In this document: one piece after another, positions 1,132-16,997 of the stretch
Numbering within the stretch: position 1 is the stretch's first letter
Layout of the letters: the number at the start of each line of letters is the position of its first letter
The notes under the pieces: model-generated
Databases searched by the model: none
Told to the model about the DNA's origin: nothing
The model's input: the letters and a program-made list of their open reading frames with translations, nothing else
Assembly: GCA_023253905.1 (NCBI GenBank)
Contig: JALREG010000068.1
Location: forward strand, 1-16,997
Length of the DNA stretch: 16,997 bases
Source: Burkholderiaceae bacterium
GTDB lineage: Bacteria; Pseudomonadota; Gammaproteobacteria; Burkholderiales; Burkholderiaceae
Direction: 5' to 3'
Made by a program: the position numbers and the translations under genes

Positions 1132-2913
1132 ATGAACACTTTGCATCCGGAGCCGCCTTTTCGGGGGGGCGCTGATGTGGATGCGGCCGCACTGGTGGCG
1201 CGACAGACCGATCAATTGGCCCAGGCCCTGCTTGCCGGCTGGACGAATGGCGTGTCGCCGGTGGCCATTTCGCTTGCCTTCAGCGACTGGCTGCTTCACC
1301 TGTATTCCTCGCCTGGAAAGCAGGTGGAGCTCCTCCGAAAGCTTTCAAGAAAATCATTGCGCTACGGGTGGTACCTGGTGCTGCTTTTGCAACAGCATGA
1401 ATGTCCGACCTGCATCGAGCCCTTGCCAGGGGATCGCCGGTTCCGTGGTGAGGCATGGAGCCGATGGCCCTTTAACGCGATGCATCAGGCGTTCCTGCTG
1501 CAGCAGCAGTGGTGGCACAACGCGACGACCGATGTCCACGGCGTGTCGCCTCATCATTTACAGTTGGTCAATTTTTGCGTACGACAGATGCTGGATGCGT
1601 GGGCGCCGGCCAATTTTCCCGCGACCAATCCGGAGGTGCTAAATGAGACAACACGCAGCGGCGGGGGTAATCTGCTGCGTGGCGCATTGAACTTGTCCGA
1701 TGACCTGCGGCGAGGCGTGCTCGCTGAACCGCCGGCGGGTGCGGAGGCGTTCGCCCCGGGCGAGGTCGTTGCGATCACACCCGGCGTGGTGGTGTTTCGG
1801 AATCGGCTGATTGAGCTGATTCAATATCTTCCGCAGACACCTTCGGTACACCCCGAACCGGTCCTGATCGTGTCGGCCTGGATCATGAAGTACTACATCC
1901 TGGATCTGTCGCCCGATCATTCGCTGATTCGTTATCTGGTACGGGCGGGATTCACAGTGTTCGCCATCTCATGGGTCAATCCGGGACCCGACGAGCGTGA
2001 CCTGTCCATGGAGGACTACCTGCAGATGGGTATCCTCGACGCCATGGCGGTGATCGGAACGATCGTGCCGCGCGCCCGAATTCATGCGACCGGCTATTGC
2101 CTGGGCGGCACATTGCTCGCCATGGCGGGGGCCGCGCTGGCTCGCGAGCGTGCACACAATCTCGCCAGCATCACGCTTTTTGCCGCGCAGGTTGACTTTG
2201 AGGAGGCGGGCGAACTGACACTCTTCATCGACCACAGTCAGGTCGCGCTGATGGAGGACATGATGGCGGCGCAAGGATTTCTCGAAACCCGTCAGATGTC
2301 GGGCGCCTTTCAGATGCTGCGCTCGAACGATCTGATCTGGTCGAGGACGCTTCGCGACTATCTTCTCGGCCAACGCGCGCCGATGACTGACCTGATGGCC
2401 TGGAATGCTGATGCCACGCGCATGCCGTATCGGATGCATAGCGACTATCTGCGCCGGCTGTTTCTGGGTAACGACCTCACGGCTGGGCGTTGTCGGGTAG
2501 GCGGCCGGGCAGTGAGTCTTGGTGATATTGATGTCGACTTGTTTGCCGTGTCCGCCCATGGCGACCATATCGCACCCTGGCGCTCGGTCTACAAACTGCA
2601 CCTTTTTACAGAGACCGAACTGTGCTTTGTGCTGGCGAGCGGGGGGCACAATACCGGGGTGATCAATCCCCCCGACGCCGCGTTTCCCTCATCAACCTAC
2701 AAGTGCGCCACCCGGCGCCGTGGCGCTCACTATGATGATGCAACCAGCTGGGCGGCGCGCGCACCGACCCAGCCCGGGTCTTGGTGGCCAACCTGGGTAG
2801 CGTGGCTTGAGGCGCGATCCAGCCGGCTTCGTACGCCGCCTCCTGCGGGCAATCCGGCCGGGGGTTTCCCCGTGCTCGGTACCGCGCCGGGTACGTATAT
2901 TCATCAGCGGTGA
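1132..2913 (+). CDS. phaC: Polyhydroxyalkanoate synthase (class I-like, PhaC)
   Basis: PHA synthase polymerises 3-hydroxyacyl-CoA, usually 3-hydroxybutyryl-CoA, into storage polyester on granules, releasing CoA. Seen: an alpha/beta-hydrolase polymerase with the lipase-like box GYCLGG holding the nucleophile Cys, the Asp in SAHGDHIAPW and the His in SGGHNTGVINPP. The N-terminal part has PLPGDRRF and SPANF-like APANFPATNPEVLNET segments. The end is GSWWPTWVAWLEARS, then a class I-type tail PGTYIHQR. The frame is open from ATG 1015 (632 residues). I chose ATG 1132 (593 residues) because it gives Cys323, Asp478 and His506, close to Cys319/Asp480/His508 of the 589-residue Cupriavidus necator enzyme as I remember it. 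No candidate start has a convincing ribosome binding site, so the start is uncertain. No phaA, phaB, phasin or phaR lies nearby, so this looks like a secondary, orphan synthase. Confidence 0.92.
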   Translation: MNTLHPEPPFRGGADVDAAALVARQTDQLAQALLAGWTNGVSPVAISLAFSDWLLHLYSSPGKQVELLRKLSRKSLRYGWYLVLLLQQHECPTCIEPLPGDRRFRGEAWSRWPFNAMHQAFLLQQQWWHNATTDVHGVSPHHLQLVNFCVRQMLDAWAPANFPATNPEVLNETTRSGGGNLLRGALNLSDDLRRGVLAEPPAGAEAFAPGEVVAITPGVVVFRNRLIELIQYLPQTPSVHPEPVLIVSAWIMKYYILDLSPDHSLIRYLVRAGFTVFAISWVNPGPDERDLSMEDYLQMGILDAMAVIGTIVPRARIHATGYCLGGTLLAMAGAALARERAHNLASITLFAAQVDFEEAGELTLFIDHSQVALMEDMMAAQGFLETRQMSGAFQMLRSNDLIWSRTLRDYLLGQRAPMTDLMAWNADATRMPYRMHSDYLRRLFLGNDLTAGRCRVGGRAVSLGDIDVDLFAVSAHGDHIAPWRSVYKLHLFTETELCFVLASGGHNTGVINPPDAAFPSSTYKCATRRRGAHYDDATSWAARAPTQPGSWWPTWVAWLEARSSRLRTPPPAGNPAGGFPVLGTAPGTYIHQR

Positions 2914-2950
2914 TGACAGGCGTGCTGTTGCGGATTTGACTCGGATTAAG

Positions 2951-2964
2951 GCGCACTTTTGCGC
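2951..2964 (+). repeat. Small inverted repeat after phaC
   Basis: GCGCA and TGCGC form a perfect 5-bp inverted repeat with a 4-nt loop in the 94-nt gap between the PHA synthase stop and the aminotransferase start. No T-tract follows, so it is a poor intrinsic terminator. It might act as a weak terminator, an operator, or have no role. Confidence 0.25.
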
Positions 2965-3007
2965 TTCCGCGTACACTTCCCGCCTCGATTCGGCAACGGA
3001 GTGTCAC

Positions 3008-4168
3008 ATGCCCGGTCTTCTGCCCAACGTCGATCCCGACGGTTTGCTTGAATATTCGGTGGTTTACACCGATCGCGCGCTCAATCACATGTCCCGGCGT
3101 TTTCAGGGCGTCATGGGCGACATCTCTGCCATTCTCAAGGAGGCCTACGGCGCTCGCTCGGCCGTGGTGGTCCCGGGGAGCGGCAGTTTCGGTATGGAGT
3201 CCGTTGCCCGGCAGTTCGCGACGGGTCAGCGTGTCATGGTGCTGCGTAACGGCTGGTTCAGCTACCGCTGGTCCCAGATCTTCGATGCCGGCGGCTTCTC
3301 AAGCCACTGCACGGTGTTGAAAGCGCGCCGGCTGAAGGCCGGAAGCCGCGAGCCGTTTGTGCCCGCTCCCATTGATGAGGTCGTGAGCGCCATTCGTGCA
3401 GAACGCCCGGCAGTGGTTTTCGCGCCTCATGTGGAAACCTCCTGCGGCCTGGTGCTGCCCGACGACTACCTTAAGGCGGTCGCGGCGGCGGCACACGAAG
3501 CGGGTGGGCTGTTTGTTCTCGACTGCATCGCCTCGGGTGCGCTTTGGGTCGACATGAGGGCCTGCGGGGTTGACGTGCTCGTGAGCGCCCCCCAGAAAGG
3601 CTGGACGGGTTCGCCCTGTTGCGCCTTCGTCATGCTGTCGGAACTCGCCCGCGAGCGCATTGACGGCACCACCAGTTCAAGTTTCTCGCTGGATCTCAAG
3701 AAGTGGCTGCAGGTGATGGAGACCTATGAGTCGGGCGCCCATGTCTATCACACCACCATGCCTACCGACGCGCTCGCCATTACCCGAGCCGCCATGGTTG
3801 AAACCCGTGAACGGGGGTTTGAGGTCTTGCGCGCCGCCCAGATCGAGCTTGGAAGGCGGGTACGCGAGGTCATGGTGCGGCATGGTTACCCCAGCGTAGC
3901 AGCCGAGGGTTTTCAGGCTTCGGGCGTCGTCGTGAGCTACACCCACGATCCCGAGATGCAAAGCAGCAAGGCTTTCCTCAACCTGGGCCTTCAAACGGCC
4001 TCAGGTGTGCCGCTGCAGTGCGACGAGGGCGCAGATTTCCGTACCTTCAGGCTTGGGCTCTTCGGGCTCGAGAAGCTGGGTCGCACCGACGCCACGGTCA
4101 AACCGCTCGAAGAAGCGCTTGTTCAGATCGAGCGTGAGCGTGCCGGGCGTCTCCCCGCTGCAGCGTGA
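3008..4168 (+). CDS. Class V PLP-dependent aminotransferase (alanine/serine-glyoxylate aminotransferase-like)
   Basis: This cytosolic PLP enzyme probably transfers an amino group between an amino acid and a 2-oxo acid; the pair is unknown. Seen: 386 residues, typical of the alanine-glyoxylate / serine-glyoxylate aminotransferase branch of fold-type I. GSGSFGMESV lies near residues 58-66 (phosphate-cup region) and HVETSCGLVLP near 141-151. Asp172 in VLDCIASG should pair with the pyridine nitrogen. Lys197 in SAPQKGW is the expected Schiff-base lysine. The C-terminal small domain contains FRTFRLGLFG, with an Arg expected to bind the substrate carboxylate. The frame is open from 2807, but ATG 3008 is preferred: GGAG at 2998-3001 sits 6 nt before it and the protein then begins like its family. 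The neighbouring PHA synthase and hydroxyacid enzyme hint at 2-oxo or hydroxy acid metabolism, but this is inference. Confidence 0.88.
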   Translation: MPGLLPNVDPDGLLEYSVVYTDRALNHMSRRFQGVMGDISAILKEAYGARSAVVVPGSGSFGMESVARQFATGQRVMVLRNGWFSYRWSQIFDAGGFSSHCTVLKARRLKAGSREPFVPAPIDEVVSAIRAERPAVVFAPHVETSCGLVLPDDYLKAVAAAAHEAGGLFVLDCIASGALWVDMRACGVDVLVSAPQKGWTGSPCCAFVMLSELARERIDGTTSSSFSLDLKKWLQVMETYESGAHVYHTTMPTDALAITRAAMVETRERGFEVLRAAQIELGRRVREVMVRHGYPSVAAEGFQASGVVVSYTHDPEMQSSKAFLNLGLQTASGVPLQCDEGADFRTFRLGLFGLEKLGRTDATVKPLEEALVQIERERAGRLPAAA

Positions 4169-4211
4169 TCTGCCGGTCACATGTCGCGCCGGGCGGGCTG
4201 GATTCCCCCCC

Positions 4212-4235
4212 GCTCGGGGCGTTTGGGCTCCGAGC
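4212..4235 (+). terminator. GC-rich stem-loop after the aminotransferase gene
   Basis: Positions 4212-4220 and 4227-4235 can pair over 9 bp (one G-U pair in the plus-strand RNA) around a 6-nt GTTTGG loop, 43 nt past the aminotransferase stop. Only TT-C-AT follows, so the U-tract is poor. It lies between convergent genes, where a terminator is expected. A second repeat, GCTGATC at 4258-4264 with GATCAGC at 4274-4280 (7 bp, 9-nt loop), overlaps the last codons of the minus-strand oxidoreductase and may be chance. Confidence 0.45.
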
Positions 4236-4252
4236 TTCATAAGGTGTGCGGT

Positions 4253-5263
4253 TCAGGGCTGATCTGATACCCGGATCAGCATCCGCCCCGTGTGTCTACG
4301 CTCAACCAGCGCATCAAACGCCTCCACCGTGTGTTCCAGCGAAAACGCGGTGGGCGGCGCCGGCCGCAACTGACCCTTCGCCACCAGGGCTGACAGCTGG
4401 TTGATCATGTCACGCATCTTGGGCGCGTGCGTCTGGCGCTCGTCGCCAGGTGTCCAGCCGGTATAAAGCCCCAGATTCACGCCGATGACGGCCACGTTTT
4501 TTACCAGCAGCAGGTTGGCGGGAACCTGAGGAATGGTTCCTCCCGCAAACCCGATCACGAGGATACGGCCCTCCGGCGCGACCGCCTTCATTGCGTGTTC
4601 GAAACTCTGACCGCCTACCGGATCGAATATCACATTGATACCGCGGCCGCCGTGCCGCTCCTTGAGCATACGGCCCAGGTCTGGCGTGTCACTGCGCCAG
4701 CCCTCGTGAGCGCCGTGTTCAAGGGCGACCTGAATGCGGGCCTCGTCTCGGGCAACAGCAATGACATGGGCGCCTGCGAGTCTGGCCAGTTCGACTGCAC
4801 ACCGACCCACGCCTCCCGCTGCGCCAAATACCAGCACGGTTTCGCCGGCCTGTAAGCGAGCGCGCCAGTGGAGCGCCGCCCAGGGCGTGCCATACGCGGC
4901 TGGCAGCAGGCAGGCGAGGTCGAACGGGACCTCTTCCGGAATCTTCCAGACCGTGTCGGCGGTGCCGACTGCTTCTTCTGCGTAACCACCCCAGTCAATG
5001 ATGCCGGCGACCCGGTCGCCCACCGCCAGATGCGAGACCTCAGGCGCCACTTCGGTGATCACCCCAGAGACCTCCGTGCCCGGAACAAACGGTAGAGGCG
5101 GCTTTCGCTGGTATCGACCCGCAACGATCAGTGAAGTACCAAAGCCGACGCAGCAGTATTTCACGGCGATTCGAACGCAGCCGGCGCGTAGCGGCGGGGG
5201 CGCAACATCACGAAGCTTCAGGTCCTGGTAGCCGGTATAGGCTTCACAGACGATTGCACGCAT
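4253..5263 (-). CDS. NADPH:quinone oxidoreductase-like medium-chain reductase (zinc-free MDR)
   Basis: This cytosolic enzyme is expected to use NADPH to reduce a quinone, enone or enoyl-thioester-type substrate. Seen: 336 residues with an N-terminal GroES-like domain (PFVPGTEVSGVI near 58-70, VGDRVAG near 81-87). It lacks the catalytic and structural zinc cysteines of true alcohol dehydrogenases. A Rossmann domain has the dinucleotide motif VFGAAGGVGRCAVELA (about 145-160), followed by the NVIFDPVGG and GRILVIGFAGG strands typical of the quinone oxidoreductase group. The ATG at 5263 has a good AGGAG ribosome binding site (5270-5274), 6 nt away. The gene starts 27 nt after the DctM stop, so it is most likely the last gene of the TRAP operon and may act on the imported compound or its CoA ester. 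Family assignment is firm; the substrate is unknown. Confidence 0.88.
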   Translation of the reverse strand: MRAIVCEAYTGYQDLKLRDVAPPPLRAGCVRIAVKYCCVGFGTSLIVAGRYQRKPPLPFVPGTEVSGVITEVAPEVSHLAVGDRVAGIIDWGGYAEEAVGTADTVWKIPEEVPFDLACLLPAAYGTPWAALHWRARLQAGETVLVFGAAGGVGRCAVELARLAGAHVIAVARDEARIQVALEHGAHEGWRSDTPDLGRMLKERHGGRGINVIFDPVGGQSFEHAMKAVAPEGRILVIGFAGGTIPQVPANLLLVKNVAVIGVNLGLYTGWTPGDERQTHAPKMRDMINQLSALVAKGQLRPAPPTAFSLEHTVEAFDALVERRHTGRMLIRVSDQP

Positions 5264-5290
5264 CAGCGACTCCTAGCGTGGTGGTGCCGA

Positions 5291-6571
5291 TCAGTAGCCC
5301 AGCATCCTGGGCAGCCAGGTAACGAGCGGCGGGAAAACAATGCACGCGATCAACAGCAGATATTGAGAAACAATGAAAGGCATGCAGTGCTTGACCAGTT
5401 CCCCCATGCGGATGCCTGTCATGCCGCAGATGACAAATAACACCACACCAACGGGAGGCGTCATCATCCCGATGATCAGATTGAGTACGAACAGGAAGGC
5501 GAAATGGGTGGGGTCGATGCCATACGACATGGCAATGGGGTGCAGCAAGGGCACCAGCATGATGTAGGCCGCATTCGACTCCAGAAACATGCCGACCACC
5601 AGGAGGAGCAGCGCCACCAGCAGGTTGAAGACCAGCGGACTCGAAGTGATGGAGCGCAGCCAGTCAGCGAGCGCCTGCGGCAGCAGATCTACGGTGAGCA
5701 GGAACGTGACGGTGGAGGCAAAGGCGATCATGGCTGCCACCACCCCCGACATGACGGCCGAGCGATAGAGAATCTCGGGCAAATCGGCGAGCTTCAATTC
5801 TCGGGTGACGAAAAATCCAAGCAGCAGGGCGCCGACCACTGCGATTGCCGCGCCCTCGGTGGCGGTGAACGCGCCCCCGATGATGCCCACGATCACGCCA
5901 ATCGGAAGCGCGAGGGTGAGCCAGGAAGCACCGGTTGCCTGCGCGAGCCGTCTGACGGTGAAGGGCTCGCCGGTCAGCGGGTAGTTGCGGCGCTTGGCGA
6001 TCCACCAGCACTGCGCCATGAAGACTGCTGTGATGATGACGCTGGGAATGGCTGCCGCCACAAAGAGGGCGCCGATCGATACCGACGAGCCTGCCATGTA
6101 GGCGTAGACAATCATGGCAGCCGACGGCGGGATGATGGGTCCGAGGTTGGCTGAGGCCGCGATCACCGCGGTGGAGAAACCGAGTCCGTAGCGCTTCTTC
6201 AGTTCTGGGCCAACCGTGGAGGACAGAGCTGCAGCGTCGGACACGGCGGTACCCGACACCAGCGACAAGATGGCACCGGCCAGCATCGCGACCTGCGCTA
6301 GCCCACCCCTCACGCGCCCCACCAGCGCATTGGCGAACAGGATCATGCGCTCCATGATCCCGCCCTTGATCATGAGTTCGCCAGCGACCATGAAGAGCGG
6401 GATAGACATCAGCGGGAATGAATTCACCGCGTTCATCATGCGGGTCGGAAGCATCCCGTAGTCAATGTCGGCCACAGCAAGTCCGGCAAGCGCCGCTACA
6501 CCCAGCGCAAAGGCCAGTGGCATACCGGCGAGTGCAGCCACGGCAAAAACCAGCATCACAAGTGTGCTCAT
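5291..6571 (-). CDS. dctM: TRAP transporter large permease (DctM)
   Basis: DctM is the ion-driven translocation subunit of a tripartite ATP-independent periplasmic transporter in the inner membrane. Seen: 426 residues, the usual length, almost wholly hydrophobic with about 11-12 predicted segments. Family-typical motifs are present: NSFPLMSIPLFMVAGELM, VSGTAVSDAAALSSTVGPELKKRYG, ASANLGPIIPPSAAMIVYAYMAGSSVSIGALF, and near the end NLIIGMMTPPVGVVLFV. The start at 6571 lies 13 nt after the DctQ stop, with only a weak AAGGG upstream, so translation is probably coupled. It works with DctQ and DctP immediately upstream. Confidence 0.95.
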   Translation of the reverse strand: MSTLVMLVFAVAALAGMPLAFALGVAALAGLAVADIDYGMLPTRMMNAVNSFPLMSIPLFMVAGELMIKGGIMERMILFANALVGRVRGGLAQVAMLAGAILSLVSGTAVSDAAALSSTVGPELKKRYGLGFSTAVIAASANLGPIIPPSAAMIVYAYMAGSSVSIGALFVAAAIPSVIITAVFMAQCWWIAKRRNYPLTGEPFTVRRLAQATGASWLTLALPIGVIVGIIGGAFTATEGAAIAVVGALLLGFFVTRELKLADLPEILYRSAVMSGVVAAMIAFASTVTFLLTVDLLPQALADWLRSITSSPLVFNLLVALLLLVVGMFLESNAAYIMLVPLLHPIAMSYGIDPTHFAFLFVLNLIIGMMTPPVGVVLFVICGMTGIRMGELVKHCMPFIVSQYLLLIACIVFPPLVTWLPRMLGY

Positions 6572-6584
6572 CGCGACCGTGCCC

Positions 6585-7079
6585 TTACTCGTGGTTGATG
6601 ACGCTGGTGCGAACAGGATCGCGCCAGAGGAGGGCGATCAGATGCAACAGGCAATGGAGCGCGCACACCGCGACCGGAACCAGAAACCAGTTGGTGCTCA
6701 CCGGAAGGGTGGGCATCAGTTCGTCCCAGGTTTCAATCGCCACCGTGACCGTGAAGTAAAGCACCACCGCCATGAGCAGCATGGCAACCAGAGAGCACAG
6801 TCGGGACAGGAGCCGCCTGGGGGCCGCCGGTACGAACTGCACAAGAAGCTCGATACCGACATGGGATCCTTCCCGCAGGCCCAACGGGATAGCCAGGAAC
6901 ATGCACCATACGAACAGGAGGCGCGAGACCTCATCGGACCAGTCGATTGAGGTATTGAAGGCATAGCGCAGCAGCACCTGGACCGATACCACCACGATCA
7001 TCAGGGCCGAGCAGACGATGACCAGCCAGCGGGCCGCGCGGTCCAGCCGCGCGAGCCCCGCTTCATAAGTGGTAAGCAC
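6585..7079 (-). CDS. dctQ: TRAP transporter small permease (DctQ)
   Basis: DctQ is the small four-helix membrane subunit that pairs with DctM. Seen: 164 residues with hydrophobic helices near 17-36, 47-62, 91-113 and 131-150. The family-like segment YAFNTSIDWSDEVSRLLFVWCMFLAIPLGLREGSHVGIELLV follows the first helix. The start is GTG at 7079-7077, just 3 nt beyond the DctP stop, which suggests translational coupling; no clear independent ribosome binding site is seen. The nearest ATG is out of frame. Confidence 0.9.
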   Translation of the reverse strand: MLTTYEAGLARLDRAARWLVIVCSALMIVVVSVQVLLRYAFNTSIDWSDEVSRLLFVWCMFLAIPLGLREGSHVGIELLVQFVPAAPRRLLSRLCSLVAMLLMAVVLYFTVTVAIETWDELMPTLPVSTNWFLVPVAVCALHCLLHLIALLWRDPVRTSVINHE

Positions 7080-7082
7080 CGC

Positions 7083-8084
7083 TTACTGCTTGGCGGCTTC
7101 GGCAAGCACGCGTGCGACCAGATCCGCCCCCGCACGCTTTTTCACGTCTTCCACGATATTGGCTGTTGCGGCGCGCATGTCGGCGATCAGTTTGGGTGAC
7201 ACCTCATCGTAGGTGACGCCACGACGTTTGATTTCCCCGATTGAGTCGGCTTCCTGAATCAAGGCGCGCTCGCGCTGATACCGAACCGCTGCATTCATCG
7301 ACTCACGAACCGCCTTCTGGTGAGCGGGCGACAGCGCTTCGAACGCCTTGCGATTGGCAATCACAACGATGAAGTCGAAAAAGTGTCCGGTATTGGACAT
7401 GAATTTCTGGACCTCAAAGTAGCGGTTTGCGTTGATGATGGAAAAAGGATTTTCCTGTCCATCGACCACACCTTGCTGGAGGGCCGAATAGAGCTCCTTG
7501 ACGTCCATGGCCACGGCGTTGGCGCCCAGCGCACGGAAGGATGCGAGGTGCGTCTCGTTGGGCTGGAGCCTGATCTTGAGACCTTTGAAATCCTCAAGCG
7601 TTTTGATGGGGCGCTTTGAGTTGGTGACGTGGCGTGCGCCGAGCTCCATGAACCCGAGCAGTGTGACGCCCTTACTCGCGATCCGGCGATCGATCTCGGC
7701 GCCAATCGGGCCATCGGTCACGCGAAACGCCTGCTCGCGGCTGGTGAACTGGAAGGGCAGTGACAGCGCCTCGAGCTCAGGAACGGTTCGGGTGAGAAAG
7801 GCCATGCCCACCCAGGTCATCTGGATGGAACCGGTGCGCACCCCCTGAACGTTTTCCTGCGCGCCACCCAGTTGCATGGCGGGAAAAAGATCGACCACAA
7901 ATTTTCCAGCGGTTGCTTTTTCAAGCTCTTCCTTGAAGAGCTTCATCGCTTCGGATGAGGTGTGCTCCACGGCAAAATTGCCCGCCGCACGCCACTTGGC
8001 CTGCGCCATGGCAGACGGCTGAGCAAAGGCGATCGCTGCAGCAGCAACGAGCGAAGCGACGAATTTCGGATGACGCAGGATCAT
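7083..8084 (-). CDS. dctP: TRAP transporter periplasmic solute-binding protein (DctP family)
   Basis: This is the periplasmic receptor that captures a small organic acid and delivers it to DctQM. Seen: 333 residues. A signal peptide (MILRHPKFVASLVAAAAIAFA, cleavage probably near AMA-QA at 25-28) precedes a DctP domain. That domain has the conserved LKGLKIR-type segment, here FKGLKIRLQPN with Arg172 expected to salt-bridge the ligand carboxylate. It also has MDVKELYSALQQGVVDGQENP (about 193-213). The frame is open far upstream to 8471, but ATG 8084 is clearly right: AAGGAG (8091-8096) precedes it and the signal peptide starts there. It is the first gene of the dctP-dctQ-dctM-oxidoreductase operon. 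The ligand cannot be predicted; C4-dicarboxylates, 2-oxo acids, sugar acids and aromatic acids are all known for the family. Confidence 0.93.
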   Translation of the reverse strand: MILRHPKFVASLVAAAAIAFAQPSAMAQAKWRAAGNFAVEHTSSEAMKLFKEELEKATAGKFVVDLFPAMQLGGAQENVQGVRTGSIQMTWVGMAFLTRTVPELEALSLPFQFTSREQAFRVTDGPIGAEIDRRIASKGVTLLGFMELGARHVTNSKRPIKTLEDFKGLKIRLQPNETHLASFRALGANAVAMDVKELYSALQQGVVDGQENPFSIINANRYFEVQKFMSNTGHFFDFIVVIANRKAFEALSPAHQKAVRESMNAAVRYQRERALIQEADSIGEIKRRGVTYDEVSPKLIADMRAATANIVEDVKKRAGADLVARVLAEAAKQ

Positions 8085-8262
8085 GGGAGGCTCCTTCGAG
8101 AGTGAGCTGGGACGATAGCGCGGTCGCCGATGAGCGGCAAATTGCCCCGACCTGGTGCGTGGGGCATCTGGTGCCCTGTATGGATGCTCCACTGGGGCCT
8201 TTGGTTGCGTGAAGAGAGGGGGGCCAGTACCATCCGAGCCGGCAACTACCCAAGACACCATA
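8085..8262. promoter_or_regulatory. Divergent control region between the two transporter operons
   Basis: This 178-nt gap separates divergent operons, so both promoters should be here. Two short perfect inverted repeats stand out. GGCAA-A-TTGCC is at 8136-8146. GGGCA-TCTGG-TGCCC is at 8162-8176, 16 nt after the first ends. Repeats of this size and spacing could be operators for a shared regulator, but no regulator gene is in the window and no clear promoter hexamers were identified. Confidence 0.35.
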
Positions 8263-9417
8263 ATGAAAGTCATCATCTCTGGCGCAGGGCCAGTCGGTCT
8301 CACCACAGCGCTCGCGCTCGCACGCGAGGGCATCGGTGTCACCATCCTAGAGCGTGCTGCTGAGCTCGCAACCGATCTGCGCGCTTCGACCTGGCACCCG
8401 CCCACGCTCGACATGATGGGCGAACTGGGTCTGGTTGATGAGATTCTGCGAGATGGCCTGATCGCGCGCACCTTCCAGGTGCGTGATCGTCAGACCGGTG
8501 CGATCGCCGAGTTTGACATGGGGTTGCTGAAGGGTGAGACCGATCACCCGTACCGGGTGCAATACGAGCAATTCCGGTTCACTCAACTGGTTGCCGCAAG
8601 GCTTGCCGCGTTTCCGCATGCCAGTCTCGTGTTCAACGCCAAGGTGGCGTCGGTTTCTCAGGACCCTGAGCATATTCGGGTCACCACCGAAGACGGCACG
8701 GTCCATGAAGCTGACTGGTTGATTGGCTCGGATGGCGCCTACAGCTCCGTGAGGACTGCGCTCGGTATTGAGTTCCCCGGGCTCACCTTTCCCGAGCGGT
8801 TCTTTGTGGTCAGCACGCCGTTTCCGTTCGAAGATCACCTCAACCGCCTGTCCTACGTCAACTACGTAGCAGACATAGATGAGTGGTGCGTGCTCCTCAA
8901 GGTGCCGGGGCTTTGGCGCTGCCTGTTTCCCACCAGTGAGGAGAGCGACGAAGAGGTGCTCGCTTCGGGTGAACGCCGGCTGCAGGGTGTGTTTCAAAAA
9001 GCCGAGCCCTATGAAACGCGACACAAGACGCTCTACCGTGTGCACCAGCGTGTTGCGGAAACCTACCGCAAAGGGCGGGCGTTTCTCGCGGGCGATGCGG
9101 CGCATCTGAATAATCCGATCGGCGGCATGGGCATGAACGGCGGTCTGCATGACGGGCTGAACCTGGCCGGTAAGCTGATCGAACTGAATCGCACCGGCGC
9201 CGATCGTCTGGCCGAGTACGAGCCTGAGCGTCGTCCGGTGGCCGTCGAACACATCAACGCGACCACCGCGCGGAACCGTGAAGTGCTCGCTGAGCGTGAT
9301 CCCGCGGCGCGCAAGCGCAAGCAGGATGAACTCTGCCGCACCGCAGAGGATCCGGTGGCGGCCAAGGCTTACCTTATGAAGAGTTCAATGATCAACACTC
9401 TGCGGAGGGCTGCATGA
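8263..9417 (+). CDS. FAD-dependent monooxygenase, PHBH-like group A flavoprotein
   Basis: Enzymes of this family use NAD(P)H and O2 to hydroxylate aromatic or related substrates through a flavin C4a-hydroperoxide. Seen: 384 residues with the N-terminal FAD motif GAGPVG (7-12) in a beta-alpha-beta fold ending ILER. The DG motif is GSDGAYSSVR (155-164), and the second FAD motif is GDAAHLNNPIGGMGMNGG (277-294). It is single-domain and lacks the thioredoxin-like C-terminal domain of MhpA/phenol 2-monooxygenase types. The frame is open from 8155, but ATG 8263 places the FAD motif at the usual distance from the N-terminus; the ribosome binding site is weak. Its stop overlaps the start of the TAXI gene, so the two are translationally coupled. 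The coupling suggests it acts on the imported substrate. Exact substrate unknown. Confidence 0.9.
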   Translation: MKVIISGAGPVGLTTALALAREGIGVTILERAAELATDLRASTWHPPTLDMMGELGLVDEILRDGLIARTFQVRDRQTGAIAEFDMGLLKGETDHPYRVQYEQFRFTQLVAARLAAFPHASLVFNAKVASVSQDPEHIRVTTEDGTVHEADWLIGSDGAYSSVRTALGIEFPGLTFPERFFVVSTPFPFEDHLNRLSYVNYVADIDEWCVLLKVPGLWRCLFPTSEESDEEVLASGERRLQGVFQKAEPYETRHKTLYRVHQRVAETYRKGRAFLAGDAAHLNNPIGGMGMNGGLHDGLNLAGKLIELNRTGADRLAEYEPERRPVAVEHINATTARNREVLAERDPAARKRKQDELCRTAEDPVAAKAYLMKSSMINTLRRAA

Positions 9418-9419
9418 TG
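9404..9419 (+). promoter_or_regulatory. Ribosome binding site and overlapping stop/start for the TAXI gene
   Basis: GGAGG at 9404-9408 serves two consecutive ATG codons at 9414 and 9417. The monooxygenase stop TGA is at 9415-9417. ATG 9417 has the better 8-nt spacing and ATG 9414 has 5 nt. Either choice overlaps the stop and indicates coupled translation. Confidence 0.6.
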
Positions 9420-10376
9420 GTTCACGGGTTTCGCCTGTCACTACGCCTGGCCGCGGGTCTGATCGCAGCCACGTCCGCCGTTGTTGCCTCTGCACAGGTG
9501 GTGGGTCTTGGCACCACGCAGACGGGAGCCACTTTCCAGCTGGCGACGGGCCTTGCGAAGGTGGTGTCGGATAAAGGCGGAATGCAAATGCGCACCCAGC
9601 CGATGGCGGGTGCCGCGCAATACGCGCCGCTGGTCAATCGCGGCGACATCGAGTTCGGTATTTCGAACGTGCCGGAGCTCCACTACCTCATCGCGGGCAC
9701 CGTCATTACCGAGCGTCCGAATCCCGACCTTAGGATGGTGGCGCGTATCGTCCCTTGGTACAACGGACTTGTGGTCAAGAAAGACAGCGCCATCCGCAGC
9801 CTCGCCGACCTGAAGGGGCAGCCGGTACCGGCAGGATTCACCGGCAATCCTTTGGGAAAGGTTCTGATTACTGGGTACCTTGCGAATGCCGGGATGACGT
9901 TTGAGGACACGCGGCAGGTCCCGGTTCCGGCCTTCCCGCGGATGTTTGACGCGTTCAAGCAGCAGCAGACGGTCACCTCCATCGGTACCATCGGCATGGC
10001 GCAGCTGCGTGAGTGGGATGCCGCGCTCGGCGGAGTCAGATTCATCCCCTTCGACCCTGCGCCCAGGGCGGTCGAAGCAATCACCCGGCACGTTCCCCAC
10101 AGCAGGGTTGAAATGGTTCAGCCGGCGCCAGGACGGATCGGTGTTGATCAGCCCACGACCATGTTGGTGTATGACTACGCGTTGTGGGCCAATGTGAAGG
10201 TCAGCAATGAAACCGTGGCCAAGGTCGTGCGCGCGCTATTCGCCAACGAAGCCGATTTGAAAGCGGCAGGGCCGTTGTTTGCCGAGTTCGAATCCAAACG
10301 GATTGGCGACAACACGGGCGTGCCGTATCACCCGGGAGCGATCGAAGCGCTGAAGGCGTTGGGTCTGGCGCGCTGA
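9414..10376 (+). CDS. TAXI family TRAP transporter solute-binding protein
   Basis: This is the periplasmic receptor of a TRAP-associated extracytoplasmic immunogenic (TAXI) system, which feeds a fused permease. Seen: 320 residues beginning with a signal peptide (hydrophobic core LRLAAGLIAATSAVVASA, cleavage near SA-QV at 27-29). The TAXI-typical start GLGTTQTGATFQLATGLAKVV follows. Then come the PLVNRGDIEFGISN segment, a central VKKDSAIRSLADLKGQPVP segment, and the C-terminal LFANEADLKAAGPLFAEF. TAXI proteins are unrelated to DctP in sequence, so this is a separate receptor from the one at 7083-8084. The gene overlaps the monooxygenase and is followed after 63 nt by the fused permease. Known TAXI ligands are few (glutamate or 2-oxoglutarate-like compounds have been proposed); the ligand here is unknown. 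Confidence 0.92.
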   Translation: MMVHGFRLSLRLAAGLIAATSAVVASAQVVGLGTTQTGATFQLATGLAKVVSDKGGMQMRTQPMAGAAQYAPLVNRGDIEFGISNVPELHYLIAGTVITERPNPDLRMVARIVPWYNGLVVKKDSAIRSLADLKGQPVPAGFTGNPLGKVLITGYLANAGMTFEDTRQVPVPAFPRMFDAFKQQQTVTSIGTIGMAQLREWDAALGGVRFIPFDPAPRAVEAITRHVPHSRVEMVQPAPGRIGVDQPTTMLVYDYALWANVKVSNETVAKVVRALFANEADLKAAGPLFAEFESKRIGDNTGVPYHPGAIEALKALGLAR

Positions 10377-10378
10377 CC

Positions 10379-10400
10379 CTGGCGTTCCGGAAGCGCCCAG
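10379..10400 (+). other. Intergenic hairpin between TAXI receptor and fused permease genes
   Basis: CTGGCGTT (10379-10386) can pair with AGCGCCCAG (10392-10400), with one bulged C and a CCGGA loop. It begins 2 nt after the TAXI stop codon and has no U-tract. Hairpins in this position often protect the receptor mRNA or cut expression of the downstream permease. That role here is inference. Confidence 0.35.
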
Positions 10401-10439
10401 TCTCCGGTTCAAGTCTCTCCCGCTTCTGCGCCATCCATC

Positions 10440-12347
10440 ATGATTCGGTTCTCATCTGGGCTAGGCGTTTTTCTCGCTCTGGCGGGATTGTTCTGGGCGA
10501 TTGATGCGCCCACCTGGTTGAACTGGTTCATCTATCAGGAACAGTTCATTGCCGGCGCGCTCGGTGGTTCACTGTTCATCGCGTTCGCGGGGCAGGCGTC
10601 CCGGCGGGCAGGGGTCGAGCCATCTGCCGCGCGCCTCCTGTTTGCCCGCTTCATTCCAGCGGGCGTGGGTCTGACTGCAGGGCTCTGGCTATGTGTGCGC
10701 TATCCCGTGCTGCAAGCCGATGTGATTGGCAATGAAACCGAGGCGATCGTTCTGGCGACGATCCTGCTTGTGCTGTCGCTTGAAGCGTGTCGCCGATCCG
10801 CAGGCAGCGTCCTCACCATTGTCTTCGGTGTGTTTTTTGCGTGGGCCCTGTTCGGCTATTTGCTCCCTGGCATGCTCGCCACCAAGCAGGTGTCGCTAGC
10901 GCGTCTCCTGCCGTACCTTGCGCTTGATACGTCCAGCATGCTGGGCGCATCGCTCATGATCGCTGCCACCACGGTACTGGTATTCATGTTTTTCGGCCGA
11001 ATCCTGCAGAACTGCGGCGGCGCCGAGTTTTTCACTGACATCTCCACCGCCATGTTCGGGCGTTATCGCGGCGGCACGGGCAAGGTGGAAGTGGTGGCCT
11101 CGGCTTTGTTCGGGACGATCTCGGGCAGCGCGGTGGCCAATGTGATGTCCACGGGCATTATCACCATTCCCAACATGAAGAAGGCGGGCTACACGCCGCA
11201 AACGGCAGGTGCGGTGGAGGCGGTTTCTTCCACCGGCGGGCAGATCATGCCCCCCGTGATGGGCGCCGCTGCATTCCTGATGGCTGAGAACCTGCAGGTG
11301 CGCTATGCCGAAGTGGCGCTCGCGGCACTCATTCCCTCGCTTTTGTTTTACGTGTCGATCTTCGTCCAGGTTGATCTTGAGGCGGCGCGGCGAAAGATCG
11401 GTGGTATCGACCCCGCCGAACTTCCCAAATCGGGCGATGTGTTCCGGAGGGGGTGGTTCTTTACCATTCCGTTCATCGTGCTGTTTGCCCTCATGGCCAC
11501 GACCGATGTTCAGGCTGAGCCCGCTGTGTTGCTGGGTGTTGTGGCCATGCTGCCGTTCGCATTCCTGAAGGGCTACGGCGGCAAGCGCCTGAGCCTGCGC
11601 GGCATGTTGGAGGCGTTGATCGCCACCGGTCGCGATGCGGTCGACATCATCGTCATCTGTGCGGTGGCGGGTGCGGTGATCGGGTTATTGAACATCAGCG
11701 GATTGAGCCTCAGTCTTTCCCTGGCACTTGCGAAACTGGGCGAGGGCAACGTCATGCTGCTGCTTGTTGCGGTGGCGGTGATGTGCCTGATTCTTGGCAT
11801 GGGTCTGCCCACGACCGGGGTGTATCTGCTGGTGGCAGTGATTGCGGCGCCTTCCCTCGTACAGCTCGGCGTGCCGCCGCTTGCCGCGCACATGTTCGTG
11901 TTTTTCTTCGGATGCCTGTCGATGATTACCCCACCTGTTGCGATGGCGGCGTTTGCAGCAGCCCATATTGCGCAGACCAGCCCGGTCCAGGTGGCGATGA
12001 CCGCCTGTCGCCTCGGCTGGCCAGCGTTTGTTGTTCCGTTTGTCTTTGTATTCAGCCCCGGGCTGCTGATGGGTGGCGGGGCGCTGGTGATTGTCGTGTC
12101 GCTGGTGGCGGCGTGTGCAGGAGTCTGGATGGGGTCGGTGGCCTTGGCGGGTCAGTTGACGAGGCCTCTGCCGTGGCCGTCGCGCTTCGCAGCAGCGCTA
12201 TCGTGCGCGCTCCTTCTCTATCCGTTTGAGGCGAGTCTGGCTGGTGCCTTGATGAAAATTGCCGGTGCGGCGCTTTGTACAGCGCTTGCGGTGCGCGAGT
12301 TTCGGGTGGTCCCTTCTTCGGCCGCTTCCGGAACCGATGCGCCCTGA
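10440..12347 (+). CDS. TRAP transporter permease, DctQ-DctM fusion (TAXI type)
   Basis: This inner-membrane permease fuses a small DctQ-like part (about residues 1-165) to a large DctM-like part (about 170-560) and ends in further hydrophobic segments. Seen: 635 residues, normal for the fused TAXI-TRAP group. The DctM half has GTISGSAVANVMSTGIITIPNMKKAGYTPQTAGAVEAVSSTGGQIMPPVMGAAAF split across helices. Its partner motif is LILGMGLPTTGVYLL and later CLSMITPPVAMAAFAAAHIA. ATG 10440 gives a start directly in front of a first membrane helix; no good ribosome binding site is visible. Its receptor is the TAXI protein 63 nt upstream. An SDR gene starts 22 nt downstream, so all are likely one operon. 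Confidence 0.95.
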   Translation: MIRFSSGLGVFLALAGLFWAIDAPTWLNWFIYQEQFIAGALGGSLFIAFAGQASRRAGVEPSAARLLFARFIPAGVGLTAGLWLCVRYPVLQADVIGNETEAIVLATILLVLSLEACRRSAGSVLTIVFGVFFAWALFGYLLPGMLATKQVSLARLLPYLALDTSSMLGASLMIAATTVLVFMFFGRILQNCGGAEFFTDISTAMFGRYRGGTGKVEVVASALFGTISGSAVANVMSTGIITIPNMKKAGYTPQTAGAVEAVSSTGGQIMPPVMGAAAFLMAENLQVRYAEVALAALIPSLLFYVSIFVQVDLEAARRKIGGIDPAELPKSGDVFRRGWFFTIPFIVLFALMATTDVQAEPAVLLGVVAMLPFAFLKGYGGKRLSLRGMLEALIATGRDAVDIIVICAVAGAVIGLLNISGLSLSLSLALAKLGEGNVMLLLVAVAVMCLILGMGLPTTGVYLLVAVIAAPSLVQLGVPPLAAHMFVFFFGCLSMITPPVAMAAFAAAHIAQTSPVQVAMTACRLGWPAFVVPFVFVFSPGLLMGGGALVIVVSLVAACAGVWMGSVALAGQLTRPLPWPSRFAAALSCALLLYPFEASLAGALMKIAGAALCTALAVREFRVVPSSAASGTDAP

Positions 12348-12369
12348 TCTTTGAGAGGGTTCGCTTCCC

Positions 12370-12627
12370 ATGCCTGCTCAGACCATGAGCCATCACCCGT
12401 CGCTCAGGGGGCGTACCGTGCTGATCACCGGCGGAAGTCGCGGAATCGGCCGATCCTTTGCTCTGGCGCTTGCCAGGGCTGGCGCCCGCGTGGCCGTCTG
12501 CGGGCGAAATGCCGAGTCGCTCGATCGTGTGCTGCTCGATCTTCGAGCACAGGGCGCGCTCGATCCCCTGGCTGTTGTCGGCGATGTCTCGAGACGGGCG
12601 GACAGCGAACGCATTGTCGAGGAAGTA
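12370..12627 (+). CDS. Short-chain dehydrogenase/reductase, N-terminal fragment cut at the junction
   Basis: This is the first ~85 residues of an SDR, an NAD(P)-dependent oxidoreductase of about 250 residues when whole. Seen: TVLITGGSRGIGRSFALALARAGARVAVCGRN (16-47) with the TGxxxGIG cofactor loop, then the VVGDVSRRADSERIVEE segment (69-85) that normally leads to the NNAG strand. After residue 85 the frame stays open to 13,209 but is exactly antisense to ettA. The NNAG motif, the catalytic Ser-Tyr-Lys and the rest of the fold are therefore missing. Start is ATG 12370 or ATG 12385; a GAGAGGG lies rather far upstream. It sits 22 nt after the fused permease, so in an intact source genome it would be the last known gene of that operon. 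As it stands it cannot be functional. Confidence 0.85.
12613..12627. other. Junction between two unrelated sequence blocks (15-nt shared stretch)
   Basis: These 15 nt read I-V-E-E in the SDR frame on the plus strand and Y-F-L-D-N in the EttA frame on the minus strand. Both fit their families. Immediately right of it the SDR homology ends and EttA antisense begins. Immediately left of it the EttA homology ends (family continues V-A-G-W, here A-F-A-V) and SDR begins. Both genes therefore lose their 3' parts at one point. An assembly chimera or a microhomology-mediated rearrangement would give this pattern. Confidence 0.85.
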
Positions 12628-13290
12628 GCGATCGTGGGTGATGGCCACCACGGTGCCGGGGTATTCCTGCAGGAAGCGCTCCAGCCAGGCCACGCTTTCG
12701 GCATCCAGGTGGTTGGTGGGCTCGTCCAGCAACAGCATGTCGGGGTTGGACAGCAGCAGGCGGCACAGTGCCACCCGGCGCTTCTCACCGCCCGACAGAT
12801 TGTTCACGTCGGCATCCCAGGGTGGCAGGCGCAGGGCGTCGGCGGCGATCTCGAGCTTGCGCTCCAGATCCCAGCCTTCTGCGGCGTCGATGGCATTCTG
12901 CAATTCGCCCTGCTGTTCCAGCAGCGCGTTCATCTCGTCGTCGCTCATCGGTTCGGCGAAGCGGTCGCTGATGGCGTTGAATTCCTCGATCAGCTTCAGG
13001 ATCGGGCCCATGGCCTCCTCGACATTGCCGCGCACATCCTTCGCCGGGTTGAGGGCCGGTTCCTGGGGCAGGTAGCCGATGTTGATGCCGGTCTGGGCGC
13101 GGGCCTCGCCATGATGGTCCTTGTCGATGCCCGCCATGATGCGCAGCAGCGAGGACTTGCCGGAGCCGTTCAGGCCGAGCACGCCGATCTTGGCGCCGGG
13201 GAAGAATGACAGTGAGATGTCCTTGAGGATCTCGCGTTTGGGCGGGACGACCTTGCCGACACGATGCATGGTGTAGACGAACTGGGCCAT
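12613..13290 (-). CDS. ettA: EttA, energy-dependent translational throttle ABC-F ATPase, N-terminal 226 residues, cut at the junction
   Basis: EttA binds the ribosomal E site and gates entry into elongation according to ATP/ADP. Seen: MAQFVYTMHRVGKVVPPKREILKDISLSFFPGAKIGVLGL matches the EttA N-terminus closely. Walker A is GLNGSGKSS (39-47), the Q-loop region GYLPQEP (72-78), the signature LSGGEKRRVALCRLLL (165-180), Walker B with MLLLDEPTNHLD (185-196), and the H-switch AITHDRYFLDN (216-226). Full EttA is about 555 residues, so the P-site-interacting linker and the second ABC domain are missing. The open frame continues to 12,052, but those residues are antisense to the SDR and TRAP permease genes and are not EttA. 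An AGGA lies about 9 nt before the ATG. The gene is divergent from glyA. Identity is near certain; the truncation may be an assembly effect. Confidence 0.92.
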
Positions 13291-13476
13291 AGAAGTATTC
13301 CTGAACTGGGATGGAGGCGGGCGGCATTATGGCACAAGGCAGCTGCGCCGTGATCCCGCCTGCGCACGGGGCAAATGCCCTGGGATTGGCCGACTGAGCA
13401 CTTTCTGAGTGCCGGCGGCAGCCGCATGCAGTAAAATGCCACGCAATTGAAACTTGATCACCCCTGGGGGAAATGC
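13291..13476. promoter_or_regulatory. Divergent ettA-glyA intergenic region
   Basis: This 186-nt gap should hold both promoters. TAAAAT at 13432-13437 is a good -10-like hexamer for glyA, 39 nt before its ATG, but no convincing -35 lies 16-18 nt upstream of it. Two perfect short inverted repeats are present: GGGCA-AA-TGCCC at 13369-13380 and GCACT-TTCTG-AGTGC at 13398-13412. The second lies just where a -35 element would be and could be an operator. GGGGGAA at 13466-13472 is the glyA ribosome binding site and decides the start at 13477. I recognise no riboswitch. Confidence 0.4.
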
Positions 13477-14733
13477 ATGTTTAGCCGTGAAATGACCATT
13501 GCGACCTTCGATCCTGAACTCAGTGCCGCCATTCAGGCGGAAGCCGAACGTCAGGAGCACCACATCGAACTGATCGCGTCCGAGAACTACGCCAGTCCGC
13601 GCGTCATGGAGGCTCAGGGCTCGGTGCTCACCAACAAGTATGCCGAAGGCTACCCGGGCAAGCGTTACTACGGCGGCTGCGAGCATGTCGACGTGGTGGA
13701 GACCCTGGCCATCGAGCGTGCCAAGGCGCTGTTCGGCGCCGACTACGCCAACGTGCAGCCCCATTCCGGTTCCCAGGCCAATGCGGCCGTCTACATGGCC
13801 CTGCTCAAGCCGGGCGACACCGTGCTCGGCATGAGCCTGGCTGATGGCGGTCACCTCACTCACGGCGCCAGCGTCAGCTTCTCCGGCCGCATCTACAAGG
13901 CCGTGCAGTACGGCCTGAACAGCGTCACCGGCGAGATCGACTACGATCAGGTGGAAGCCCTTGCCCTGGAGCACAAGCCGCGCATGATCGTGGCCGGTTT
14001 CTCCGCCTATTCCCGCGTGGTTGACTGGCAGCGTTTCCGCAGCATCGCCGACAAGGTGGGGGCGTATTTCCTGGTGGACATGGCCCACGTCGCCGGCCTG
14101 GTGGCCGCTGGTGTCTACCCGAATCCGGTGCAGATCGCCGACGTCACCACCTCCACCACCCACAAGACTCTGGGCGGCCCGCGCGGCGGCATCATTCTGG
14201 CGAAAGCCAATCCCGAACTGGAAAAGAAGCTCAATTTCGCCGTGTTCCCCGAGAGCCAGGGCGGCCCGCTGATGCACGTGATCGCGGCCAAGGCCGTGTG
14301 CTTCAAGGAAGCCATGAGCCCCGAATTCAAGGCCTATCAGCAGCAAGTGGTGAAGAATGCCCAGGCCATGGCCAACACGTTCATTGCCCGGGGTTTCGAA
14401 GTGGTGTCGGGCGGTACCGACGATCACCTGTTCCTGCTCAGCCTGGTCAAGCAAGGCATCACGGGCAAGGACGCGGACGCCGCGCTGGGCCGCGCCAACA
14501 TCACCGTGAACAAGAATGCCGTGCCGCGTGATCCGCTGCCGCCCTTCGTCACCAGTGGTCTGCGCATCGGCTCGCCGGCAGCCACTCGCCGTGGCTTCAA
14601 GGAAGCGGAAGTGACCGACCTGGCCGGCTGGATCTGCGACATTCTCGACCACATGGGCGATGAGTCCGTGGTGGCCGAGGTGCAGCGCAAGGTCATCGCG
14701 CTGTGCGAGCGCTTCCCGGTGTACGGCAAGTAA
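13477..14733 (+). CDS. glyA: Serine hydroxymethyltransferase
   Basis: GlyA interconverts serine plus tetrahydrofolate with glycine plus 5,10-methylene-THF using PLP, the main source of one-carbon units. Seen: 418 residues, the bacterial length. Hallmarks are [40 protein letters not shown] split by family positions, [11 protein letters not shown], and [18 protein letters not shown]. The PLP lysine is Lys230 in [12 protein letters not shown] (Lys229 in E. coli GlyA). [10 protein letters not shown] and the [19 protein letters not shown] segment close the family pattern. The frame is open from 13447, but ATG 13477 (MFSREM) has a GGGGGAA ribosome binding site 4 nt upstream and aligns with the E. 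coli start MLKREM. nrdR follows after 24 nt, a common neighbour pair in Betaproteobacteria. Confidence 0.98.
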
Positions 14734-14757
14734 GACGGCTGCGGCCCGGAGCCCTCC

Positions 14758-15213
14758 ATGCAGTGTCCGTTCTGCAACGCGCTGGATACCAAGGTGATCG
14801 ACTCGCGTCTGGTGGCTGAAGGCAACCAGGTGCGACGTCGGCGCGAGTGCATCACCTGCTCCGAACGCTTCACCACCTATGAGACGGCAGAACTGGTGAT
14901 GCCTCGCATCATCAAGCAGAACGGCAATCGTGAGCCTTTCGACGAAAACAAGCTGCATGCCGGCCTGCTCAAGGCGCTGGAAAAGCGACCGGTGAGCATC
15001 GAGAAGGTGGACGAGGCCATCAATCGCATCAAGAACCATCTGCGCGCCACGGGCGAGCGCGAAGTGCCGTCGCGCATCGTCGGCGAGCAGGTGATGCAGG
15101 AACTGCGGCAGCTGGACGAAGTGGCCTATGTGCGCTTCGCCTCGGTCTATCGCAGCTTCAAGGACCTGAACGAATTCCGCGCCGAGATCGACCGTCTGGC
15201 CAACGACAACTGA
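14758..15213 (+). CDS. nrdR: Transcriptional repressor NrdR of ribonucleotide reductase genes
   Basis: NrdR senses dATP/ATP and represses nrd operons by binding paired NrdR boxes. Seen: 151 residues. An N-terminal zinc ribbon has Cys3-Cys6 (MQCPFC) and Cys31-Cys34 ([13 protein letters not shown]), with the basic stretch VRRRREC between them. An ATP-cone follows from about residue 49 ([26 protein letters not shown] onward) and ends with [22 protein letters not shown] 14758 has GGAG at 14748-14751 with 6-nt spacing. It lies 24 nt after glyA and 17 nt before ribD, so it is probably cotranscribed with both. Confidence 0.98.
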
Positions 15214-15230
15214 GTGTCCGGACTTCCGAG

Positions 15231-16343
15231 ATGAGCAAGCAGCCCGACGACTACATGACGCTCGCCTTCGCGGCGGCGGCCAAGGTGTCCTCCACCTCGC
15301 CGAACCCGCGCGTGGGCTGCGTGCTCGTGCGCGATGGCGAGATCGTGGGCGTGGGGCTGCATGAGCGGCCGGGCGAACATCACGCCGAGGTCAATGCGCT
15401 GCTGGCGGCGGGCGAGCGGGCGCGTGGCGCCACCGCCTATGTGTCGCTGGAGCCCTGCTGCCATTTCGGGCGCACGCCGCCCTGCACGCAGGCACTGATC
15501 GCCGCCGGAGTCGCCGAGGTGGTGTATGCCATGCCCGACCCGAATCCCCTGGTGGGTGGCAAGGGCGTGCAGGCCTTGCGCGCGGCGGGCATCCGCGTCA
15601 TCGGACCGCTGCTGGAGACGCAGGCCCGGCAGCTCAACCGTGGCTTCATCAAGCGCATGGAGCAGGGCCTGCCCTTCGTGCGCTGCAAGCTGGCCATGAG
15701 CCTGGACGGCCGCACCGCCATGGCCTCGGGCGAAAGCCAGTGGATCACCGGGCCGGCCGCGCGCGCCGATGTGCAGCGTCTGCGCGCCGAGTCCTGTGCC
15801 GTGCTGACAGGCGTGAACACCGTGCTGAGCGATGATCCCGCGCTCAACGTCCGCGTGGATGCGCAGGGCGCTGCCGCCGAGCCGTCGAGCTTGCGTCAGC
15901 CGCGGCGCGTGATCCTCGACTCCGCACTGCGTACGCCGGCCAGCGCCCGCCTGCTGCAATTGCCGGGTGCAGTGCTGGTACTTACGGCGAGCGCTGAGAC
16001 GGCGCGGCTCGCCGTCCCCGGCGTGGAGGTGCGACAGTTGGCTGCCGACACGGCCGGGCGCGTGGATCTGCGCGCGGCCATGCAGTGCCTGGCGCAGGAC
16101 TACCAGTGCAACGAAGTGCTGCTGGAGGCAGGCCCGACCCTGAGCGGGGCCATGGTGCAGGCGGGGCTGGTGGACGAAGTGATCCTCTACATCGGCGCGA
16201 AATTCCTGGGCAGCGAGGCCATGCCGCTGCTGCGGCTGAGCGGCCTGCAGCAGCACATGGCAGACCAGATCGCGCTGGACATCACGGACGTGACGACCAT
16301 CGGCGCTGACCTGCGCGTCACCGCCCGTCCGCGTTCCCATTGA
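15231..16343 (+). CDS. ribD: Bifunctional riboflavin biosynthesis deaminase/reductase RibD
   Basis: RibD performs steps two and three of riboflavin synthesis from GTP: deamination of the pyrimidine and reduction of the ribosyl side chain with NADPH. Seen: 370 residues, the standard length. The N-terminal CMP/dCMP-deaminase fold has the zinc site HAE (51-53) and PCCHFGRTPPC (75-85). The C-terminal reductase domain starts near 149 (VRCKLAMSLDGRTAMASGESQWITG) and has VLTGVNTVLSDDPALNVR and the late LLEAGPTLSGAMVQAGLVDE. ATG 15231 follows nrdR by 17 nt with a weak ribosome binding site, so coupling is likely. ribE follows after 14 nt. Confidence 0.97.
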   Translation: MSKQPDDYMTLAFAAAAKVSSTSPNPRVGCVLVRDGEIVGVGLHERPGEHHAEVNALLAAGERARGATAYVSLEPCCHFGRTPPCTQALIAAGVAEVVYAMPDPNPLVGGKGVQALRAAGIRVIGPLLETQARQLNRGFIKRMEQGLPFVRCKLAMSLDGRTAMASGESQWITGPAARADVQRLRAESCAVLTGVNTVLSDDPALNVRVDAQGAAAEPSSLRQPRRVILDSALRTPASARLLQLPGAVLVLTASAETARLAVPGVEVRQLAADTAGRVDLRAAMQCLAQDYQCNEVLLEAGPTLSGAMVQAGLVDEVILYIGAKFLGSEAMPLLRLSGLQQHMADQIALDITDVTTIGADLRVTARPRSH

Positions 16344-16357
16344 GACAGGAAAAGAAC

Positions 16358-16997
16358 ATGTTCACCGGCATCATCGAAGCATTGGGCAGCGTGGATTCCC
16401 TGCAACTGCAGGGCGGCGAGTGGCGGCTGCGCGTGCGCAGCGAGTCCCTGGATTTCGCCGACGTGGGGCTGGGCGACAGCATTGCCGTGAACGGCGTGTG
16501 CCTGACCGTCACGCAATTGGCGCCGCACGGCTTCGCTGCCGATGTCTCCAACGAGACCATGCAGCTCACGACCCTGCACGGCCTGCACACCGGCAGCCGG
16601 GTGAATCTGGAAAAAGCGCTCACACCCGTGAAGCGATTGGGCGGCCATATCGTCAGCGGCCATGTGGACGGGGTGGGGGAGCTGCTCGCACGCCGCCCCG
16701 ATGGCGCCAGCATCCGCATGGATTTCCGCGCGCCCGCCGCGCTGGCCCGCTACATCGCGCAGAAGGGCTCGATCTGCATCGATGGCACCAGCCTGACGGT
16801 GAACACCGTGAACGGCGCCACCTTCAGCATCAACGTGATTCCCCACACCCAAGCCCAGACCATCCTCCAGGACTACCGCGAGGGGCAGCAGGTGAACCTG
16901 GAGGTGGATCTGATCGCGCGGTATCTGGAACGCCTGATGCAGGGCGAGCACGCGGCCGACGAACATGACAGCAAGGCGGGCACTCTCCCCCGCGCCT
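16358..16997 (+). CDS. ribE: Riboflavin synthase alpha chain, 3' end beyond window
   Basis: Riboflavin synthase dismutates two 6,7-dimethyl-8-ribityllumazine molecules into riboflavin plus the pyrimidine precursor. Seen: 213 residues with no stop before the window ends. The lumazine-binding barrels are repeated. The first (from MFTGIIEALGSV) has DSIAVNGVCLTV and the second (from about residue 98) has GGHIVSGHVDG and GSICIDGTSLTVNTV. Family length is about 195-220, so little is missing; the last residues (from about 195) are low-complexity and polar. AGGAAAAG before ATG 16358 is a good ribosome binding site. The gene is also called ribC in some genomes. ribBA and ribH would be expected next. 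Confidence 0.96.
   Translation, partial: MFTGIIEALGSVDSLQLQGGEWRLRVRSESLDFADVGLGDSIAVNGVCLTVTQLAPHGFAADVSNETMQLTTLHGLHTGSRVNLEKALTPVKRLGGHIVSGHVDGVGELLARRPDGASIRMDFRAPAALARYIAQKGSICIDGTSLTVNTVNGATFSINVIPHTQAQTILQDYREGQQVNLEVDLIARYLERLMQGEHAADEHDSKAGTLPRA

Follow-up and report, generated by a model that had tools for sequence, protein, structure and literature searches.

The window, that is, the whole 16,997-nt stretch of DNA analysed, holds two groups of genes that meet where a plus-strand SDR oxidoreductase gene and a minus-strand ettA gene, both incomplete, run into each other. Its features are the following:

1..12610, left piece: FMN-dependent dehydrogenase (cut by the contig end), phaC, class-V aminotransferase-like gene (weak match), quinone oxidoreductase-like gene, TRAP dctM/dctQ/dctP, FAD monooxygenase-like gene, TAXI TRAP binding protein, TRAP fused permease and the SDR 5' part
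12370..12621, plus strand: SDR oxidoreductase gene, 5' part, residues 1-84 of 282 (profile, Pfam and protein alignments)
12611..12621: join, the 11-nt stretch GCATTGTCGAG fitting both parents (ends of the SDR, EttA and L090 matches)
12611..13290, minus strand: ettA, 5' part, residues 1-227 of 555, the last codon partly shared (profile, protein and DNA alignments)
12622..16997, right piece, assigned to a Pseudohongiellaceae genus: ettA 5' part, glyA, nrdR, ribD and the 5' part of the riboflavin synthase gene (ribC)
12370..13209, plus strand: 279-aa chimeric frame, SDR start followed by the antisense of ettA (P0001; one member, one contig)
12052..13290, minus strand: 412-aa chimeric frame, EttA start followed by the antisense of the SDR and TRAP permease genes

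On the plus strand, positions 12370-12624 fitted SDR models at their N-terminal part only (NF004825, positions 3-75 of 268; PF00106, 2-69 of 195), and the later catalytic region of a full-length SDR of about 250-280 aa was missing. Searching about 5.8 billion proteins with residues 1-85 gave 350 matches. Among the matches listed, the best 120 of 350, four intact SDRs of 282 aa (P0002-P0005) showed 100% identity over 99% of the SDR part. Residues 1-84 were identical in all four, and residue 85 was R in these proteins vs E in the window. Two more proteins, P0006 and P0007, also aligned to the window SDR and were excluded, their N-termini being different.

The minus-strand gene gave a similar picture. 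In a profile search, with which Pfam agreed, positions 12613-13290 fitted TIGR03719 at positions 1-223 of 552, that is, not as a full-length EttA, an ABC-F protein of about 555 aa. EttA residues 1-226 were then used as a query; scoring covered the 8000 candidates with the most words in common, and the best 120 were listed. All 120 were 554-624 aa long, and the 412-aa chimeric frame was absent among them. Two intact 555-aa proteins, P0121 and P0122, were identical to the window EttA through residue 227 (codon 12610-12612), and P0123, P0124 and P0127 showed 1, 3 and 5 differences, respectively, before residue 228. All five departed from the window sequence at residue 228. The first-pass annotation had proposed that the SDR and ettA genes were cut at one point, and this was borne out, since complete homologues of both proteins agree with the window up to the join. 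Both truncations stood as well: the SDR had been given its first ~85 residues, and identity to intact SDRs ends at residue 84; EttA had been given 226 of about 555, and identity to P0121 and P0122 reaches residue 227.

To the right of the join, the DNA of a related genome was at hand. The locus L090 (contig C56 of genome G335) aligned to the window in one HSP covering 12611-16997 (4387 nt), with 92.5% DNA identity and one gap opening. The alignment stopped at the join: position 12610 was a mismatch and there was no extension leftwards. Because SDR identity ends at 12621 and the L090 match starts at 12611, the stretch that suits both parents is at most 12611-12621, that is, the 11 nt GCATTGTCGAG. 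Seven of its 11 positions are fixed by SDR codons, and all seven agree with the ettA side; the remaining four are third-codon positions, compatible with SDR and not proven. For the SDR parent only the protein is known, so that the true overlap may be shorter than 11 nt. The interval proposed at first, 15 nt at 12613-12627, was therefore displaced: it should include 12611-12612 as well, while the six bases at its right end come from ettA only. Likewise, the reading of these 15 nt as I-V-E-E suiting both parents held up to 12621, the second E coming from the ettA side alone. When the two halves were joined at random (2,000,000 draws), shared runs of at least 11 nt occurred at a frequency of 9.5e-6. 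With such a frequency, a chance origin of the microhomology at the join is unlikely.

We looked for the same join in other sequences. The 279-aa junction frame, P0001, had one member and the window's own contig as its sole contig in the search of about 5.8 billion proteins. The longest contig listed for P0001 measures 16,997 nt, so the window appears to be a complete contig. A degenerate 39-nt junction pattern, in which synonymous changes were permitted on either side of the common core, gave 0 matches in genome_contigs and 0 in viral_contigs. Thus, an independent occurrence of the join, which the first-pass annotation had named as refuting an assembly error, was found neither within these two collections nor in the membership of P0001. 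In protein collections, the predicted 279-aa P0001 is best read as a chimera and not as a family member.

A designed gene overlap or fusion was considered and rejected. Each of the two long frames continues antisense across the gene of the other parent, neither has a Pfam match past about residues 87 and 227, respectively, and the 279-aa frame is single-member.

The right piece had a close counterpart in G335. The glycine hydroxymethyltransferase, NrdR, RibD and riboflavin synthase were 92-99% identical to their L090 counterparts, with order preserved. RibD was 92% identical in G335, the best of 137 genomes of its family, and at best 66% among the 293 genomes of an order sample. In L090, ettA is complete and is followed on its 3' side by genes for a DnaT-domain protein and a replication-P-like protein, and not by the SDR gene. 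We take the family of G335 (137 genomes) to be Pseudohongiellaceae, a name that the EttA match P0229 bears. Judging from these alignments, the right piece is that of a Pseudohongiellaceae genus. Incidentally, positions 103-6196 of L090 carry three look-alike reading frames in a row, and the one tested was a PQQ beta-propeller dehydrogenase.

The left piece behaved otherwise in the same family. The intact SDR was found in none of the 137 Pseudohongiellaceae genomes at E<=1e-40, with a query that did match relatives in the Burkholderiales and class samples. The TRAP fused permease had no counterpart in G335 and had distant versions in three relatives of G335, at best 39% identical over a long stretch. 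At the DNA level, with two candidates per genome scored, the left 12,600 nt gave conserved-patch matches in 56 of the 137 family genomes, G335 not being among them. The best-scoring match was 68% over 1072 nt, in the class-V aminotransferase-like gene, and shorter patches reached 91% over 35 nt. That gene (2807-4168, a weak Pfam match) is the left gene with Pseudohongiellaceae DNA matches longer than 500 nt (63-68%), and its protein is 59-62% identical to those of three Pseudohongiellaceae genomes.

Other groups were searched as well. The five organism-named PhaC relatives among the 120 matches listed were from Paucibacter (66%), three entries named Burkholderiales bacterium (60-61%) and Vicinamibacteria (60%), so that four of the five, Paucibacter counted, were Burkholderiales. 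In a sample of 399 genomes from the order of G011, whose record is titled Burkholderiales, the SDR was found in one genome at E<=1e-60 (G566, 57% identity; up to six candidates per genome scored). Within the family of G566, this genome was also the only one of five to carry it, and the first 20 kb of its SDR-bearing contig held none of the other left genes. The class sample likewise gave one genome of 369 at E<=1e-65 (44%; up to six candidates per genome scored), and an alignment scan of genome_contigs gave at best 41% among the matches listed. PhaC was found in 0 of the 399 Burkholderiales genomes at E<=1e-230, in a set without a known positive for this query. Plasmid searches returned only matches below 60% identity, and the scan of viral_contigs gave no SDR relatives. 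Neither the 399 Burkholderiales nor the 369 class genomes included one close to the left piece, and a close species is possibly absent from these samples. From these comparisons, the left piece probably comes from another lineage than the right, perhaps a Burkholderiales-like one. The comparison of best hits on the two sides, which had been suggested as a check, gave on the right 92.5% DNA identity to a Pseudohongiellaceae genome and on the left at most a Burkholderiales-like affinity. As a side observation, the region 5291-12347 carries two distinct TRAP systems close together, dctM/dctQ/dctP on the minus strand vs the TAXI binding protein and fused permease on the plus strand, and then the SDR.

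Composition was also compared. GC content, taken in steps of 1 kb, ranged over 0.59-0.65 in the left piece and 0.63-0.69 in the right one. The tetranucleotide correlation between left and right was 0.43, as compared with a mean of 0.60 (sd 0.095) for 480 equal-length pairs drawn within G335, 5% of which were as low as 0.43. The separation of the halves by tetranucleotide usage is weak, as is its support for two sources, and the similar GC content counts against them.

Collectively, the two sides correspond to two different parental loci that are intact elsewhere, the left parent being known as protein only, and both matches end at one point. We consider it very probable, on this sequence evidence, that two DNA molecules, most likely those of two different bacteria, have been fused into one chimeric contig at a microhomology no longer than 11 nt (12611-12621), likely outside the cell. 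The first-pass annotation had offered a short-overlap assembly chimera or a recombination at microhomology, and this pair of readings was supported by the intact genes found elsewhere, by a right side from Pseudohongiellaceae and by a left side without a close match there. A template switch or a ligation during amplification or library preparation might have put a chimeric read into the data; alternatively, the ends of two contigs might have been merged by the assembler across a short overlap. In either case, we infer a joining outside the cell, and the join would then have no biological function. Against a plain k-mer join by the assembler, 11 nt is a short overlap, and either a chimeric read or some finishing step would have to be assumed. 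Being shorter than usual assembly k-mers, the overlap also sets the window apart from metagenome-assembly chimeras.

Two published kinds of chimera resemble this one. It is a known error of metagenome assembly that two replicons end up in one contig (PMC9795473), and the window would be such a case, with one contig made of two distinct replicons. In a study of 475 chimeric junctions from multiple displacement amplification (MDA; PMC1855051), complementarity of 2-21 nt was present at >70% of junctions. The window is similar in that two segments are joined at short complementarity, up to 11 nt, with the seven codon-fixed positions in agreement. The MDA chimeras are mostly inversions of segments within 10 kb (337 of the 475 junctions; PMC1855051), whereas the window apparently joins two organisms. 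For segments >10 kb apart, complementarity was reported there for just 34.8% of the inverted and 27.6% of the direct junctions (PMC1855051). Such distant segments come closest to two separate molecules being joined, and their low complementarity would count against a simple fit. A search for literature on gap closing at short overlaps yielded nothing to the point.

The same join might have been made in a cell, by genuine illegitimate recombination that brought a foreign left cluster into a Pseudohongiellaceae ettA at the microhomology and broke both ettA and SDR. Microhomology joins also arise in cells, an overlap of at most 11 nt would suit such an event, and the sequence as such contains nothing that speaks against it. 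We nevertheless regard this as very unlikely: the junction frame occurs only once and the junction pattern is absent from genome_contigs and viral_contigs, intact SDRs and EttAs equal the window residue by residue up to the join, the donor SDR would have to be broken at the same base as ettA, and no mobile-element protein was seen among the window gene products scanned. The corresponding biological event, in which recombination between lineages would recently have brought a catabolic cluster of at least 12.6 kb into ettA in a single cell line, with loss of EttA, is just as improbable.

A common origin of the two halves in a single Pseudohongiellaceae genome, misjoined or rearranged within it, is scarcely credible: GC is similar on both sides and the class-V aminotransferase-like gene has its 63-68% DNA matches over more than 500 nt in several family genomes, but no left gene was found at high full-length identity in the 137 family genomes, nor any in G335, to which the right side is 92.5% identical, the tetranucleotide difference between the halves is at least as large as in 95% of the within-G335 pairs, and four of the five organism-named PhaC relatives among the matches listed, one Paucibacter included, are Burkholderiales.

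Under the favoured reading, a chimera of two molecules, the join brings no new biology and carries a practical warning: neither gene neighbourhood nor taxonomy should be transferred across 12611-12621, and 1-12610 and 12622-16997 are best handled as separate contigs, as the first-pass annotation had already advised for gene context.

Lastly, two EttA proteins from other contigs showed internal duplications. P0126 (576 aa, 100% identical to the window part) repeats GKTTFLRMLVG around a ten-residue insert, and P0125 (624 aa) repeats about 70 residues; these may be assembly artefacts too.
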